Virus record (IMG/VR): IMGVR_UViG_3300029787_000392
Coordinates: 1 to 21,401 of that record
From: a virus
DNA: 21,401 nucleotides
Strand: one strand, 5' to 3'
The notes below the pieces were generated by a model. The model was not told the DNA's origin and did no database searches. It saw nothing but the letters and a program-made list of their open reading frames with translations. Both the position numbers and the translations under genes were made by a program. Of the stretch, positions 3,901 to 21,034 are shown piece after piece (positions within the stretch are counted from its first letter, which is position 1; every line of letters begins with the position of its first letter).

Positions 3901-4446
3901 ATGAAAGAATATATTTTAGAAGTCAAAAAAATAATTCCATCTAAATTTTGTGAAAAAATAATTAATTATTTCGATAAAGATTATTATAATGCTCATACAA
4001 CAGGGCATGGAGTTGACAAAAACATACGAAATTGCGTTACAAGAAATGTATTAGAAACAAAAACACTTGGTGAAAAAATATGTTCAAATGCAATTAAAGA
4101 AAAATTATTTGAATGCGTTTTGCACTATCAAAAAAAATTTGACATAGATATAAAAGAAATATCTCAATTAGATATCTTAAAATACGAGACAAATAAATAC
4201 AAAGCAGGGTATGATTTTCATCAGGACTTTGGTAAAGGATGCACAGAAAGACATCTTTCTATTTCAATTTGTTTAAATAATGACTATGAAGGAGGAGAGT
4301 TTGTTTTTGATTTATCTTCTGGTAAACACGTTCTTCCTCAAAATGTAGGGGATGCAGTTATTTTCCCATCCAACTTTATGTTTCCTCATCAAGTCAATAA
4401 AATAACTAGAGGCACAAGATATGCCTTGATAGGATGGGTATACTAA
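3901..4446 (+). CDS. 2-oxoglutarate/Fe(II)-dependent oxygenase, prolyl-4-hydroxylase-like
   Basis: The 181-residue protein carries the full prolyl-4-hydroxylase-type signature: H107-Q-D109 in YDFHQDFG, EGGEF at 130-134, GDAVIFPSNFMFPH ending in the distal H163, and R173 in RGTRYALIGWVY for the 2-oxoglutarate carboxylate. H107, D109 and H163 would bind Fe(II). Such enzymes hydroxylate protein side chains or small molecules using oxygen and 2-oxoglutarate. The length is that of a single-domain enzyme. No Shine-Dalgarno precedes the ATG. The gene is coupled by TAATG to a second oxygenase-like gene, which is followed by a glycosyltransferase, so glycan or virion-protein modification is plausible. 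Substrate unknown. Confidence 0.8.
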   Translation: MKEYILEVKKIIPSKFCEKIINYFDKDYYNAHTTGHGVDKNIRNCVTRNVLETKTLGEKICSNAIKEKLFECVLHYQKKFDIDIKEISQLDILKYETNKYKAGYDFHQDFGKGCTERHLSISICLNNDYEGGEFVFDLSSGKHVLPQNVGDAVIFPSNFMFPHQVNKITRGTRYALIGWVY

Positions 4447-5878: not shown

Positions 5879-7705
5879 ATGCCCTTAGTAAATTTTAGAC
5901 CAAACCCCGGTATCAATAAAGAAGTAACTGACTACACAGGCGAAGGCAAGTGGACAGATGGTGATAATGTACGATTTTTTCAAGGATTACCTCAAAAAAT
6001 TAAAGGTTGGCAAAAGTTTATATCTACCACTTTGGTGGGAGTAGTAAGAGATCAACATGCATGGATATCTCTTGACGGAACAAGACACGATGCCGTGGGC
6101 ACAGATAGAAAACTATATATTATACAAGAAGGTTTAGCCTACGATATTACTCCTATTAGAGAGACACAAGCTCTAACCAATCCTTTTACAACAAATGCAA
6201 CAACTTCTGTTGTGGTGACTGACACAGCTCATGGTGCACAAAAAGGTGACTTTGTTACTTTCGATTCTTTTTCAGCTATTAATGGTCTTGATATGAATAA
6301 AGAATTTGAAGTTACCTCTGTAGCAAATAATAATGCCTATGTGGTAACAGCGACCTCTGCTGCTTCTGGATCAACTTCAGGAGGCGGTGGCACAGGTAAT
6401 GCAAAGTATCAAATTAATATTGGACCTGAGTTTTCTGTGCCTGCTTTTGGTTGGGGAACAGATACTTGGAGTTCTGGTACATGGGGCACACCTTCCTCAT
6501 CTTCTAATGTGACGCTTGAAGCAAGACAATGGTCATTAGATAATTTTGGTGAAGACTTAATTGCAGTAGTCTTGAATGGTGGTGCTTTTAAATGGGATAC
6601 ATCAGGAGGCGTAGCAACAAGAGCAGCAGCTATTACAAACGCACCAACTAAGTCAAGATTAGGATTAGTATCCACACCTGACAGACATTTACTTTTAATG
6701 GGTTCTCAACCAACTATCGGTGGAACTAATGCTCAAGATGATTTACTTATAAGATTTTCAAACCAAGAAGATATTGAAACATATCAACCTACAGCAGAGA
6801 ATACTGCAGGCACATTAAGAATTGCTGACGGATCACGGATCGTAGCAGCAGAACGTTCAAGGGGTCAGATACTTGTTTGGACAGATACTTCTCTACACTC
6901 TATGCAATTCATTGGTCCTCCTTTTACTTTTGGTTTAAGACAACTTGGTCAAAACTGTGGCATCATAGGACAACATGCAGGTATAGATATTAATGGTGTT
7001 TCTTATTGGATGTCTCAAGATTCTTTCTTTCTCTTTGATGGTACAGTTAAAAAATTACCTTGCACAGTGGAGCAATACATATTTGATAATATTAATCAAA
7101 CAGGATCTGAAAATGCTTTTGCAGGTCACAACGGTGAATATAACGAAATTTTATGGTTTTATAATAGAACAGGATCAGATCAAATTAATGCAGTAGTTGC
7201 TTATAACTACTTAGAGCAAACTTGGTGGATTGGAACATTAGATAGAACAGCTTGGATTGATAGAGAGGTTTATGACAATCCAGTAGCATCGGATTATTTA
7301 CCTACAACTACAGCCAACAATGAAGTTATATCTGGACTTACCGATGGAGCTACTCAAATGTTTTTACACGAGGTTGGTAACAACGGTGACGATGAAGCTA
7401 TTACTGCTTACGTTAAATCAGGTTCTGTTGAAATAGGTCAAGGAGATGAATTTTCTTTTGTATCAAAGCTTATTCCTGATGTGCAAAATCAAGAGGGAAC
7501 TTTAAATATGAATTTAGAATTTAAAAACTATCCTAACAATAGCACTAGCGTAATAAAAACTACTAGCTTTGTAGATAGCACAGAGTTTGTAAGTCTTAGA
7601 GGAAGAGGTAGAGAGTTTACAGTCAATGTTATTTCTAACACCACAGGAACAGCTTGGAGATTAGGCACACAACGTTTTGAAATACAGCCCGATGGTAGAA
7701 GATAA
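5879..7705 (+). CDS. Large tail nozzle/DNA-stabilisation-like structural protein
   Basis: The 608-residue protein begins MPLVNFRPNPGINKEVTDY and has TGEGKWTDGDNVRFFQGLPQ, an N-terminus I recognise from a widespread phage tail family annotated as tail, nozzle or P22 gp10-like stabilisation protein. Residues ~105-175 form a beta-rich insert (DTAHGAQKGDFVTF... ending in a Gly-Ser-rich linker). A Trp triad W192, W197, W202 (GWGTDTWSSGTWG) follows. The remainder is rich in Trp-anchored beta repeats, as expected for a beta-propeller nozzle, for example QILVWTDTSLHSMQF and VSYWMSQDSFFLF. It probably forms the ring or nozzle through which DNA leaves. The start has no Shine-Dalgarno. The 3' end overlaps the next gene by 14 bases. 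Confidence 0.7.
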   Translation: MPLVNFRPNPGINKEVTDYTGEGKWTDGDNVRFFQGLPQKIKGWQKFISTTLVGVVRDQHAWISLDGTRHDAVGTDRKLYIIQEGLAYDITPIRETQALTNPFTTNATTSVVVTDTAHGAQKGDFVTFDSFSAINGLDMNKEFEVTSVANNNAYVVTATSAASGSTSGGGGTGNAKYQINIGPEFSVPAFGWGTDTWSSGTWGTPSSSSNVTLEARQWSLDNFGEDLIAVVLNGGAFKWDTSGGVATRAAAITNAPTKSRLGLVSTPDRHLLLMGSQPTIGGTNAQDDLLIRFSNQEDIETYQPTAENTAGTLRIADGSRIVAAERSRGQILVWTDTSLHSMQFIGPPFTFGLRQLGQNCGIIGQHAGIDINGVSYWMSQDSFFLFDGTVKKLPCTVEQYIFDNINQTGSENAFAGHNGEYNEILWFYNRTGSDQINAVVAYNYLEQTWWIGTLDRTAWIDREVYDNPVASDYLPTTTANNEVISGLTDGATQMFLHEVGNNGDDEAITAYVKSGSVEIGQGDEFSFVSKLIPDVQNQEGTLNMNLEFKNYPNNSTSVIKTTSFVDSTEFVSLRGRGREFTVNVISNTTGTAWRLGTQRFEIQPDGRR

Positions 7706-8234
7706 TTTTCTTAAAAGTATAAGAAATAAAAAAGTAAATCTTACAGAACAACAAGTTTTAGAAAGATTCTATGACAGATTTCGTTGGCCTAAATTTTATC
7801 CTTGGGGTCAACCTTCTGTTGAAGCAATAAATGAAGAGGGTGAAAATTATCAAGACTTTTTTTTAGAAGATAATTATATTGATTCCAATAAATGCATTAA
7901 AACCTACTTAGATGGGTATACTCTAATACTTTCTAATATAGGAGGTTTTTGTAAAGATACTTGGGAAATTCAAACTATGATTAATAATTACTTTAAAATA
8001 AATGTTAATTGTAATTTTTATTTTGGTAACGGTAAAAAATCAGTTTCTTTTGATAAACATAATCATGATTATAGCGTTTTAGTAAAAAATATATATGGTA
8101 AGTCAAAATGGATAATTAATAAGGAACAGGTTAATTTAGAAAATCAAGACTGTATTTGGTTTAATAAAGATATTGACCATCAAGTCACAAGAATAGATAA
8201 TCATAAGTTGTCTATGACGTGCAACATAATTTAA
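7692..8234 (+). CDS. Cupin_4/JmjC-like oxygenase-fold protein with HxH instead of HxD
   Basis: The 180-residue product from ATG 7692 (TTG 7677 is an alternative) ends in a cupin-type domain: KHNHDYSVLVKNIYG puts H123 and G136 at the 13-residue spacing of Cupin_4/Cupin_8 hydroxylases, and H163 (KDIDHQV) is the distal ligand. The usual Asp two residues after the first His is H125, giving an HxH...H set, so metal use or activity may differ from classical 2OG enzymes. The N-terminal part (residues 1-75) has an aromatic-rich RFRWPKFYPWGQP segment. The gene is strongly AT-rich, lies partly inside the end of the nozzle-like gene and is followed by another oxygenase-like gene. Substrate unknown. Confidence 0.55.
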   Translation: MVEDNFLKSIRNKKVNLTEQQVLERFYDRFRWPKFYPWGQPSVEAINEEGENYQDFFLEDNYIDSNKCIKTYLDGYTLILSNIGGFCKDTWEIQTMINNYFKINVNCNFYFGNGKKSVSFDKHNHDYSVLVKNIYGKSKWIINKEQVNLENQDCIWFNKDIDHQVTRIDNHKLSMTCNII

Positions 8235-8239
8235 ACTTT

Positions 8240-8788
8240 ATGGAACAAAAAATAATAGAGTATACAAAATATAGTTTTCCTTGTGATTTTTATGAAATAA
8301 AAACAGAATATCAAGACAACGATAAAGTACTTAATTTTTTGTCAAAAAATAAAATAAATAGAAGTACAGAACAATTTAGCACTTTTTTTAATAATAACAA
8401 AATAATGGATGATCCTGATTTACAATTTTTTAAAAGTTTCATAACTAAACAATTAATAATTTTTACTACAAGTGTGTTAAATAAAAAAAATTTTAAGTTT
8501 TTACATTCTTGGTTTCAAGCTTATAAGCCCGATGACTTCCACGATACACATATCCATGGAAATCAACGTGATGAATACTCACTTATTTATTATGTAAACT
8601 GCACCGATGACTCGGCTGTTACTGTTTTTTATGCACCAATGGAACCTTATGTTGATTCTCATAATCCAATAAAGATAAAGCCAGAAAAATCAAAATTAGT
8701 TATTTTTCCTTCTTACTTGCCACACTGTGCCTACCCAAATAAAGATGAGGAAAGAATTATATTTTCAGCAAATATTAAGGTAGAATAA
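8240..8788 (+). CDS. Putative 2OG-Fe(II) oxygenase (PF13759-like)
   Basis: The 182-residue product (ATG 8240; GTG 8219 is a possible earlier start) matches the pattern of the putative 2OG-Fe(II) oxygenase family PF13759 as I know it. It has SWFQAYKPDDFHDTHIHG with H104-I-H106, then EYSLIYYVNC, KSKLVIFPSYLPHCAYP with the distal H162, and a final RIIFSAN with R172 as likely 2-oxoglutarate ligand. No good ribosome site precedes either start, so coupling to the upstream gene is likely. Base composition is extreme (11 G/C in bases 8341-8400). It pairs with the cupin-like gene before it. The target is unknown; a tail-protein or glycan hydroxylase is a reasonable guess. Confidence 0.65.
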   Translation: MEQKIIEYTKYSFPCDFYEIKTEYQDNDKVLNFLSKNKINRSTEQFSTFFNNNKIMDDPDLQFFKSFITKQLIIFTTSVLNKKNFKFLHSWFQAYKPDDFHDTHIHGNQRDEYSLIYYVNCTDDSAVTVFYAPMEPYVDSHNPIKIKPEKSKLVIFPSYLPHCAYPNKDEERIIFSANIKVE

Positions 8789-8963: not shown

Positions 8964-9312
8964 CGTATTTAAAAGATTTATAGCAAACGTGACAACCACA
9001 GATTTGACAACGGTCTTCACAGTTCCAACTGCCGATGTAGCTGCAACACCACCAGTTCCTGTATCAACTTTTATTATTAAAACAATTAATACTCATAATT
9101 ATGATGGATCAAATGCAGTGACTGTAAATATTGACCACAATAATGGTAGTGCGGATTTTCAAATATTTCAAGTTGATGTATCTGCTAGTGATACCAATAC
9201 GATATCTACTAGCATGGTATACGCTGAGGGTGACTCTTTAAAAGTTCAAGCTAATGCTGCAAGTAGAGCTATGATTGAAGTATCTGTGTTGGAGATAAAA
9301 CAACAACAATAA
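8956..9312 (+). CDS. Small beta-rich virion-associated protein
   Basis: The 118-residue protein starts MADVFKRFIANVTTTDLTTVFTVP and alternates hydrophobic and Thr/Ser/Asn residues throughout, with NAVTVNIDHNNGSADFQIF and SLKVQANAASRAMIEVSVLEI. That is the character of small phage accessory or decoration proteins built as a beta-sandwich. No catalytic motif is visible. AGGAGG at 8926-8931 and GAAGGA at 8937-8942 lie upstream of the start. The stop is fused to the next start as TAATG. A virion role is inferred from composition and neighbours. Confidence 0.65.
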   Translation: MADVFKRFIANVTTTDLTTVFTVPTADVAATPPVPVSTFIIKTINTHNYDGSNAVTVNIDHNNGSADFQIFQVDVSASDTNTISTSMVYAEGDSLKVQANAASRAMIEVSVLEIKQQQ

Positions 9313-9911
9313 TGTACATTATATCTGACGTACCTAAAGATGTATTAGAAGAGTTAGACAAAATTATAAACAAAAAAAATAAGCCTGCCTACAATCAAAA
9401 ACTTGCGGGTTCAATCAAAAACGAATTTGGCATTAGAGAAGGTATAAGCATAGTATCTCCTTTTCTCATGCAAATGGTAAAAGCACACAACGATAAACAT
9501 CCTGCTTTTATTAAAAGAGCTCATTCAATGTTTAACTACAAAACCATAGACATAGAACTATTTGATCTATGGGTAAACTTTCAAAAGAAATATGAATTTA
9601 ACCCTCCTCATGTTCACGATGGTCTATTTAGTTTTGTAATATGGTATAAGGTTCCTTATCTTTTGAAAGATGAAAAGGCTAATTTTCCATACATGGATGA
9701 AAAAAATCAAAAAGCAGGTCAGTTTGCTTTTCTGTTTACAGCACCTGATGGAAGGCTACATACTGAAGATTTACCAGTTGACAAGGAGTGGGAAGGTAAG
9801 ATTGCTCTATTTCCTGCAGACTTAAACCATATGGTCTATCCGTTTTACACTTCAGATGAATATCGAATATCTATATCAGGTAACTTAGGTTTCAAAACTT
9901 CAGACAAATAA
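9312..9911 (+). CDS. Putative 2OG-Fe(II) oxygenase with HVHD motif
   Basis: The 199-residue protein has LWVNFQKKYEFNPPHVHDG with H100-V-H102-D103, then FSFVIWYKVP, GKIALFPADLNHMVYPF with the distal H173, and YRISISGN with R185. This order (HxH, FP...H, R..S.N) is shared with the 8240 gene and with PF13759-type putative oxygenases, so the two may be distant paralogs. The N-terminal 90 residues are helical and Lys-rich. Base composition is closer to the structural genes than for the other cupin or oxygenase genes. It is coupled by TAATG to the small beta-rich protein before it and is the last gene before the internal virion cassette. Substrate unknown. Confidence 0.65.
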   Translation: MYIISDVPKDVLEELDKIINKKNKPAYNQKLAGSIKNEFGIREGISIVSPFLMQMVKAHNDKHPAFIKRAHSMFNYKTIDIELFDLWVNFQKKYEFNPPHVHDGLFSFVIWYKVPYLLKDEKANFPYMDEKNQKAGQFAFLFTAPDGRLHTEDLPVDKEWEGKIALFPADLNHMVYPFYTSDEYRISISGNLGFKTSDK

Positions 9912-18732: not shown

Positions 18733-20199
18733 CTAAGTAATCCAACTTTTCAACTCATCACCCATAACTTGACTGGCTATGTCAACCTTGTTCTTCAAGG
18801 CAGTTAATATCTTTTCATCAACAGTTCCTTTACAAACAAAGTCAACATAAGTCACTTTATTCTTCTGTCCTATTCTATGAGCACGGTCTTCACTTTGTAG
18901 TCTTATCTCAAGATCATAATTGTTTGAAAAGTACACAACAGTGTGAGAGGCAGTAAGAGTGATTCCATATCCACCAGTCTTAGGGTTCGCGACAAGGTAC
19001 GTGAGATCATGTCCTTTGTTCTGAAAATTTTCGACAAGATCCATCCGTACTTGATTATCTGTATCACCATAAAAAGCCGCAGTCGAAGTATCACCATATT
19101 TATCCTTTAGTTTTTGAGTTATTGTTTGAATATTATGTCTGTAATTTGCCCATATAATTACTTTACCGTCAGACTCTTCTAGGACATTTAACAGTTCATC
19201 ATATCTTTTATTAGGCACGTCATGGATTTCACCATCATCGTTGATAGTGAATCCACAACATACCTGGTGCAACTTAACAATCTGTGAGAGCCGGTTCACA
19301 GATGTGGTTGTATTGTCATTGAAAATAAACATTGCGTTTCTTCTCAATGATTCATAAGCTACAAGTTGTTTCTCACTCATAGTTACAAATCTTTTCTGAT
19401 ATACTTTATCGGGTAAGTCCGTGCACTCTTCTTTTTTTACACGGAAGGCATGTGTATATATCTTTTCTTCTAACTCTTCTAAACGTTGATAGCCTGTTAT
19501 CAAAGGGAAGTGACGACCCCCTGATGTAGGTCTATTAATTATCTTTGCGTATCTAGCACGAAAAGCATAATAGTTTGACTGACCTAGTATCTTTGTATCT
19601 AAGAAAGCAAACTGAGTATAAATATCTAAAGGACTCTTTGTTACTGGCGTACCAGTTAAAATTCTTTTGTATGCAATATCTTTGGTGATCTTAATTAAAT
19701 TCTTTGTTCGTTTGGCTGTAGGTGTTTTTATTGTAGTGCTTTCATCAACGATCATCATAGTTCTAGATAAATCTTTTCGAGATAAAAAAGCTGACAAATA
19801 ATTCATACCTTTGGGTGTAGAAAGAGATTCGATGTTCATCAAAAAGACGTGTAGTTTTGATTCTCTACCAGCAACGAAAAACTTTTCTGTGGATAAGTTT
19901 TCTTTTGTGTAGGGATCTATCATAGAAGGTTCCCATGTATTTACTTTGTAGTCATAGTCACTAGATATAAATGTGTTAATCTCTTTCATCCAATTACGAT
20001 ACACGGACTTCGGAGCAAGGACCACGGCACACTCAACAATGTCTTTGTTATTCAACAATAGTAAGTCTATTAACGCTGTCAGTGTTTTACCCGTACCCAT
20101 CTCCATAAGGTATGCGTAGTTATACATGTCTGTATTATGACATGATGCAACCGCATCCTTTTGATGTTTGAAAGGTTCCTTCAAAAAAATGTTAGCCAT
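18733..20199 (-). CDS. SNF2-family DEAD/H-like helicase/ATPase
   Basis: The 488-residue protein contains the SF2/SNF2 set in order: FKHQ near residue 10 (Q-like motif), Walker A M34-G-T-G-K-T39, VVLAPKSVYRNW (motif Ia), D152-E-S-T155 (motif II), ILTGTPVTKSP (motif III), a C-lobe with KVIIWANYRHN and GGYGITLTASHTVVYF (motif V region), and Q435-SEDRAHRIGQ445 (motif VI). Both RecA-like lobes are complete, and the length is normal for minimal phage SNF2 proteins. It should be an ATP-driven DNA translocase or remodeller in replication, recombination or anti-defence. It is the only minus-strand gene, convergent with the structural genes, and apparently has its own promoter. The start has no Shine-Dalgarno. 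Confidence 0.88.
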   Translation of the reverse strand: MANIFLKEPFKHQKDAVASCHNTDMYNYAYLMEMGTGKTLTALIDLLLLNNKDIVECAVVLAPKSVYRNWMKEINTFISSDYDYKVNTWEPSMIDPYTKENLSTEKFFVAGRESKLHVFLMNIESLSTPKGMNYLSAFLSRKDLSRTMMIVDESTTIKTPTAKRTKNLIKITKDIAYKRILTGTPVTKSPLDIYTQFAFLDTKILGQSNYYAFRARYAKIINRPTSGGRHFPLITGYQRLEELEEKIYTHAFRVKKEECTDLPDKVYQKRFVTMSEKQLVAYESLRRNAMFIFNDNTTTSVNRLSQIVKLHQVCCGFTINDDGEIHDVPNKRYDELLNVLEESDGKVIIWANYRHNIQTITQKLKDKYGDTSTAAFYGDTDNQVRMDLVENFQNKGHDLTYLVANPKTGGYGITLTASHTVVYFSNNYDLEIRLQSEDRAHRIGQKNKVTYVDFVCKGTVDEKILTALKNKVDIASQVMGDELKSWIT

Positions 20200-20207
20200 A
20201 TAAAAAT

Positions 20208-20235
20208 AATATATTGCATTTTGTTAGGATTTCAA
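20208..20235 (-). promoter_or_regulatory. Candidate promoter of the SNF2 helicase gene
   Basis: On the minus strand TTGAAA (20235-20230) and TATATT (20213-20208) have a 16-base spacer. The -10 ends eight bases before the ATG at 20199, and no ribosome site lies between, suggesting a leaderless or nearly leaderless mRNA. Confidence 0.5.
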
Positions 20236-20242
20236 GTATAAC
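20214..20242 (+). promoter_or_regulatory. Candidate promoter of the replication-side operon
   Basis: TTGCAT (20214-20219) and TATAAC (20237-20242) have an ideal 17-base spacer. Transcription would start near 20249 and give a leader of about 210 nt before the ATG at 20459. It overlaps the divergent helicase promoter almost completely. Confidence 0.5.
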
Positions 20243-20248
20243 TTTTTT

Positions 20249-20458
20249 AACGAACAATAAAGTGCTTAGCTGGCACTTTTAGCTTGTGGCGGAACAACGT
20301 TTTCAACAGAGGCGTAACGCACAGGGATTGGGGAAGGATGGGCAAATGCCTGGTGGCCTCATAGCTGGTACAAGTAGGGTGGAGAAACCGTTCATCTGTG
20401 TCCTGGAAGTTGGAGGTGAGAAACTAGTCCTCCCAAGCTGTTCGACAAAGGAGGTAAC
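20249..20458 (+). ncRNA. GC-rich structured leader (candidate cis-regulatory RNA)
   Basis: Between the divergent genes the first 60 bases are very AT-rich (11 G/C in 20201-20260), while 20341-20400 has 32 G/C of 60. A step of this kind in a non-coding stretch is typical of structured RNA. A hairpin AAAGTGC/GCACTTT (20259-20265 with 20273-20279) followed by four T lies at its start, and alternative hairpins cover its 3' end. A GTG-started frame of 61 codons (20286-20471) runs through it but has no ribosome site. I see no match to a riboswitch class that I can verify. It could also hold a replication origin or an antisense target. Confidence 0.45.
20410..20454 (+). promoter_or_regulatory. Mutually exclusive hairpins that hide or free the ribosome binding site
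   Basis: GGAGG (20412-20416), CCTCC (20429-20433) and GGAGG (20450-20454, the core of the ribosome site AAGGAGGT) lie in a row. CCTCC can pair either with the first GGAGG (extended by TT/AA at 20410-20411 and 20435-20436 with C20434 bulged) or with the ribosome site itself. The two stems cannot form together, the usual anti-anti-SD / anti-SD / SD arrangement of translational switches. Confidence 0.45.
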
Positions 20459-21034
20459 ATGGCTAACATAATTGACTTTGACGATCTTAAACAAGACGCT
20501 GGTGATTTAAGAAACTTACAAGATGGAGAAGTTTCAGCACTCAGCCAACTTATTCAAAAACAAATAAATTTAGAGTCTGAAATAGAGAATATGGAAGACA
20601 CATTAAAAGAATTAAAAAAAGAAAGAGACATTCTTTCTTCTGATACAATACCTGTCAAGATGCAGGAGTTAGGTATTAATGAAACAACAATGGCTGACGG
20701 CAGTAAGGTTACTGTAAAGGACGGATTTCATTGTAGGATACCAAAAGCAAGAGAAGATGAAGCATTAGACTATTTAAGAAGCAATGATCTTGGTGATATA
20801 ATCAAGAATCAAGTTTCAACAAGTTTCGGAACGGGTGAAGACAATATGGCTGGAGATTTAGCTGGATATATAGAACAGAACTTCGGTATCACCCCTGACG
20901 TGAAAAAATCAGTGCACCCCTCGACACTGAAGGCGACTCTTAAAAAGCGCCACGAAGAGGGACTAACGGACCCTGACGATCTCTTTGGGATCTTCATACG
21001 TCCAGAAACCAAAATAATAAAAGGAAAAAAATAA
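20459..21034 (+). CDS. Conserved phage protein with N-terminal coiled coil, replication region
   Basis: The 191-residue acidic protein has an N-terminal coiled coil, residues ~25-60 (LSQLIQKQINLESEIENM, then LKELKKERD), followed by a compact beta region (NETTMADGSKVTVKDGFHCRIP) and a C-terminal part with VHPSTLKATLKKRHEEG. I recall related proteins beside the replication genes of marine phages, with no fixed function. A full AAGGAGGT ribosome site precedes the ATG and is the target of the leader switch described above. It is followed three bases later by the next gene. It should be an early or replication-linked gene, possibly tightly regulated at translation. Confidence 0.65.
   Translation: MANIIDFDDLKQDAGDLRNLQDGEVSALSQLIQKQINLESEIENMEDTLKELKKERDILSSDTIPVKMQELGINETTMADGSKVTVKDGFHCRIPKAREDEALDYLRSNDLGDIIKNQVSTSFGTGEDNMAGDLAGYIEQNFGITPDVKKSVHPSTLKATLKKRHEEGLTDPDDLFGIFIRPETKIIKGKK

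Follow-up and report, generated by a model that had tools for sequence, protein, structure and literature searches.

The leader that precedes a replication operon in the analysed stretch of viral DNA, hereafter the window (21,401 nucleotides; positions 1 to 21,401 of IMG/VR record IMGVR_UViG_3300029787_000392), is a structured, conserved RNA and a homologue of manA. It occupies positions 20259-20439 of the plus strand, from the first helix, P1, to the 3' strand of the closing helix, P2, and constitutes a divergent manA subclass which falls short of curated membership. The assignment is based on a match to the Rfam family RF01745 (20260-20443), on reciprocal model searches and on covariation. 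manA, known since 2010 and, among the orphan RNA structures of marine phages, one of the larger, was described as a candidate riboswitch in the 5' UTRs of genes for metabolism and photosynthesis (PMC2864571), and its regulatory role still awaits proof (PMC9964418); neither of these two papers names a ligand. The re-curation of the family in Rfam 14 yielded 48 significant pairs (PMC7779021). The group reported here extends manA-type RNAs to phages outside the T4-like cyanophages and to a place beside replication genes, with RNA-less sister phages at hand for comparison. A first-pass annotation of the sequence had proposed an undescribed cis-regulatory RNA at this site: covariation and a constant location, with the promoter on one side and the start codon on the other, bear out a structured leader positioned in cis, but as a relative of manA it is not undescribed.

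In a permissive search of the leader (411 bases) against all Rfam families, RF01745 was matched over its whole length (model positions 1-192; 33.8 bits, E 3.5e-7), and the runner-up reached only E 2.4. Because this score sits below the curated gathering cut-off of 55.2 bits, the standard Rfam search is silent, with no match at the gathering threshold in the window or in 20 relatives; the Rfam search suggested in the first-pass annotation thus identifies a family without conferring membership. Relatives of the leader score between 26.9 and 41.8 bits against RF01745. In the reverse direction, model R1, which was built from 24 window-type leaders and their RNAalifold structure and was blind to manA, detects two cyanophage manA RNAs, that of S-SSM7 at 21.5 bits and that of S-CREM1 at 20.8 bits, both over their full extent and at the positions already known; it also detects related RNAs in contigs L160, L156 and L159 (68, 65 and 43 bits). 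The manA RNAs of P-SSM4 and P-SSM2 are missed by R1, and for the Prochlorococcus type the reciprocal connection is therefore indirect. Model R2 recovers the P-SSM2 RNA end to end (26.7 bits) along with RNAs of the canonical type (E 1e-5 to 1e-11), but P-SSM4 and another ten cyanophage loci escape it. Window-type leaders and cyanophage manA RNAs are linked by a set of bridging copies, which enlarge the family and were collected from marine phage contigs by a pattern search derived from L156 and by model R1; they are found in at least 34 viral contigs, with scores from 28.6 to 73.7 bits, at least 33 of them full-length or nearly so and one truncated.

The window RNA and manA share the order of the arms from P1 to P6, a similar length (183 positions, and 192 in RF01745) and the motifs of the P3 arm, and both are found in marine phages, directly behind a promoter and ahead of a gene. 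The window RNA differs from manA in its P1 loop, AGCU, in carrying GGCGGAACAAC where manA has GACUGAAUAA, in preceding a replication operon, and in having carriers other than T4-like cyanophages. Two other kinds of RNA invite comparison. The wcaG RNA (RF01761) is likewise a candidate cis-regulatory RNA of marine cyanophages and was described alongside manA, but it gives no match at its cut-off in the window and is absent from the leader's permissive matches. The glnA and Downstream-peptide (glutamine) riboswitches also occupy marine 5' leaders, and the CGUUCAUCU ... GGAAGU stretch of the window bears what we take to be a resemblance to the glutamine aptamer; this candidate was rejected, as neither glutamine family gives an Rfam match up to E 10 and the resemblance varies among relatives.

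The same architecture is obtained when manA is left aside: RNAalifold, run on 34 leaders with no manA sequence as input, returns the manA arms, namely P1, a closing P2, P3, P4 with an inner hairpin, P5 and P6. All of them lie on the plus strand. P1 (20259-20279) pairs 20259-20266 with 20272-20279, and in the family-wide helix all six pairs have changes on both sides; the hairpin noted at the leader start in the first-pass annotation is thus real, being kept by relatives in which the whole stem has been replaced. The closing helix P2 joins AGCUUG (20281-20286) to CAAGCU (20434-20439), with changes across the family from A-U to C-G, G-C to U-A and A-U to G-C. Enclosed by P2 are the P3 arm (20287-20323), whose conserved GGCGGAACAAC ... 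GUAACGC corresponds to GACUGAAUAA ... GUAAGGU of manA, the P4 and P4b arm (20327-20362), whose helices 5, 6 and 7 show compensatory changes, the P5 arm (20377-20404; helix 8, 91% paired), which is the least certain helix of the window-type group, and the P6 hairpin GGAGG ... CCUCC (20412-20433; helix 9, 98.5% paired), which includes a change from G-C to A-U. The P1 loop (20267-20271) contains the self-complementary AGCU, invariant in the 34 leaders though the stem is exchanged, and has UGCA in its place in the bridging copies L156, L169, L195 and L238; judged from these letters, a loop-loop contact or a dimer is conceivable.

Covariation was assessed in an alignment of 40 sequences, seven of the window type and 33 bridging, and compensatory changes were found in 27 of the 41 consensus pairs. 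Paired cells amount to 95.8%, compared with 78.8% after shuffling and 37-45% after sliding the partners by one to three columns, and the covariation score is 0.492, compared with 0.179 for shuffled and at most 0.113 for slid alignments; the slid control favours the structure, since the structure was derived from that very alignment, and the covariation score and pair changes are the better evidence. The covariation check recommended in the first-pass annotation therefore came out in favour of a structured RNA. The folding energy of the single sequence is ordinary (z -0.41) and, on either strand, no better than that of shuffles, so that the support for the RNA rests on comparison and not on energy.

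The RNA coincides with a marked change in composition. Positions 20259-20443 contain 51.4% G+C, while 185-nt windows average 35.8% (sd 5.8) and only 0.12% of them reach this value. Counted per 60 bases, G/C rises from 11 (20200-20259) to 29, 34 and 30, close to the 32 that had been reported. Two frames are open here in the window, 20286-20471 on the plus strand and 20303-20494 on the minus strand, and could be taken for a small protein gene. The plus frame, however, is intact in no sequence but the window and relative L002, and it meets a stop within 14 codons in 32 of the 34 distinct relatives, which moreover differ by indels of 1-2 nt; the leader ORFs have no Pfam match above the cut-off and no PHROG match, and the compensatory changes are consistent with an RNA helix. 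The earlier statement that the leader holds no well-supported gene is upheld, and where that annotation had named absent covariation and a coding pattern in 20286-20471 as evidence against an RNA, the outcome was the opposite on both counts. Its other suggestion, an origin of replication, found no echo in any result. Readings as a small protein gene or as a DNA element, for instance an origin, we consider highly improbable.

Upstream of the RNA, on the plus strand, stands a promoter-like block (20214-20242) of TTGCAT (20214-20219), a 17-nt spacer and TATAAC (20237-20242), from which transcription is expected to start at about 20249. The block was recognised from sequence and is kept in all 38 distinct leaders, including those of the RNA-less contigs L050-L055. 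The promoter with ideal spacing that had been annotated here is accordingly sound in its 17-nt spacing and conservation; its hexamers match the consensus at 8 of 12 positions, and a consensus scanner is silent. Beyond the promoter region lies a divergent gene for a SNF2-type helicase (18733-20199, minus strand; Pfam PF00176, E 1.1e-24). Downstream, the RNA is followed by a ribosome-binding site, AAAGGAGG (20447-20454, plus strand), recognised from its letters, and by a gene for a Pam3 gp33-like DUF7307 protein (20459-21034, plus strand; Pfam PF23984, E 8.8e-29; PHROG 2378), the first of the replication operon as judged from the gene order of relative G005. In G005, the RNA is followed by genes for gp33-like, gp34-like, primase-like (507 aa), helicase-like (514 aa) and polymerase-like (619 aa) proteins, the last three of which are named from inspection and position, not from a family search.

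About 50 of the relatives found through the gp33-like gene carry the leader, and in 34 window-type leaders 19-25 nt separate the RNA end from the ATG. An obligatory link between gp33-like genes and the RNA was rejected, as relatives at 44-51% lack the RNA there. In L050-L055, whose gp33-like protein is 66-67% identical, the promoter block and the gene are kept with a short leader only (about 2428-2501), and model searches of three of these contigs, which are fragments, reveal no copy elsewhere; sharing promoter and gene but not the RNA, these phages offer a natural RNA-less comparison. The fast first pass of the model search overlooks copies, such as that of G017, which does carry the RNA, and its negatives are therefore weak. 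Direct sequence comparison reaches less far: blast of the leader against isolated phages gave short chance matches only, blast of a bridging RNA gave none, and true matches to the exact pattern GGNGTAACGCACAGGG are confined to the same locus, the others being chance matches inside genes.

In 34 of 35 bridging cases a usable ATG is first met 8-23 nt past the RNA, mostly at 15-23 nt and with a median of 18. These copies precede 13 protein clusters, two of which are too short, at contig ends, to count; including the gp33-like gene, about a dozen unrelated ORF families follow the RNA. The commonest product is a protein of 96-115 aa, which has no match in the searched contigs of the window clade; its gene lies behind a DNA polymerase gene in L156 and L159, and in L160 another small gene intervenes. 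This inconstancy of the downstream gene argues against a sensor for a single metabolic pathway. Blast of the P-SSM4 copy matches 37 phage records, at one place in each, and a promoter matching at 12 of 12 positions lies immediately upstream in all three cyanophage copies scanned. The surroundings again vary: a transaldolase gene begins 24 nt after the RNA in P-RSM6 and gp32 39 nt after it in P-HM2, a terminator-like site follows directly in P-SSM7 and after about 28 nt in MED4-213, the RNA abuts tRNA-Gly in S-SSM7, and it spans the interval from one tRNA gene to the next in S-CREM1 and contig L323. Copies flush with phage tRNA genes (L151 616-827, L323 8280-8475, L163 1864-2064) look as if freed by tRNA processing, in a family that Rfam types as cis-regulatory. 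In the tRNA cluster of L323, ARAGORN also calls a permuted tmRNA-like gene (7904-8231), which overlaps two tRNA calls and is probably false.

We think it probable that the leader, as a divergent manA relative of six helices and about 181 nt, acts in cis and tunes the mRNA of the replication operon. The RNA would open the transcript of this operon (gp33-like, gp34-like, primase-like, helicase-like and DNA polymerase-like genes), and its position between promoter block and ribosome-binding site suggests a function as a 5' leader. Since P2 and P6 end just upstream of the ribosome-binding site, folding could adjust how well the operon mRNA is translated or how long it lasts, possibly with the help of a ligand or protein. 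For the window type, a simple on/off route is predicted, in which CCUCC of P6 pairs instead with GGAGG of the ribosome-binding site. By partition-function folding, this pairing has a mean probability of 0.17 over 34 leaders and exceeds 0.7 in four; as a conserved switch it was set aside, being strong in those four only and not evident in the bridging sequences.

Copies that lie between tRNA genes or abut tRNA-Gly leave hardly any scope for translational control of a neighbour, so that such control cannot be the sole role across the family, and two other readings remain serious rivals. The RNA may be a stand-alone phage noncoding RNA, trans-acting or processed, with which the downstream gene merely shares a promoter; we hold this to be unlikely for the window. 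It would account for the single copy per genome or contig wherever the RNA is found (a lower bound, as most genomes are fragments), for the unrelated downstream genes, for the own 12/12 promoter in several cyanophages, for the terminator-like site right behind the P-SSM7 copy, and for the copies of S-CREM1, S-SSM7 and L323, which lie flush with tRNA genes and would be released by tRNA processing. Against it, the window and nearly all bridging copies are without a terminator and have a ribosome-binding site and start codon within about 20 nt, a short spacing which would be equally expected from compact genomes.

Alternatively, and with a still smaller chance, the RNA could act near the promoter as a generic element, shielding the 5' end of the transcript or rendering RNA polymerase resistant to termination, like the put RNA of HK022. 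Such an element would fit a P1 that, in copies of all three kinds (window, bridging and cyanophage), begins no more than about 10 nt from where transcription is expected to start, a place at the head of a long operon, and an indifference to what follows, tRNAs and terminator-like site included. The conserved core between P2 and P6, however, suggests specific recognition, and put RNAs are far smaller and less conserved than the manA-type RNA, which counts against a generic element. More tentatively than the cis-acting leader favoured for the window, we entertain the view that manA extends far beyond its curated members: the family might be a mobile promoter-plus-RNA module, moving among unrelated genes, tRNA clusters and terminators, and serve as an autonomous RNA or generic expression element, not as a gene-specific metabolic riboswitch.

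The carrier phage has a virion protein of 608 aa similar to that of Phage DSL-LC04 (45%), to those of Pelagibacter phages HTVC027P and HTVC023P (38-41%) and to those of Roseobacter phages (35%); models R1 and R2 give no match in HTVC027P and HTVC023P. Among the virion genes of the same 21-kb fragment are three 2OG-Fe(II) oxygenase-like genes (3901-4446, 8219-8788 and 9312-9911; Pfam PF13640, PF13759) and two weaker, JmjC-like ones (2457-2951 and 7677-8234).
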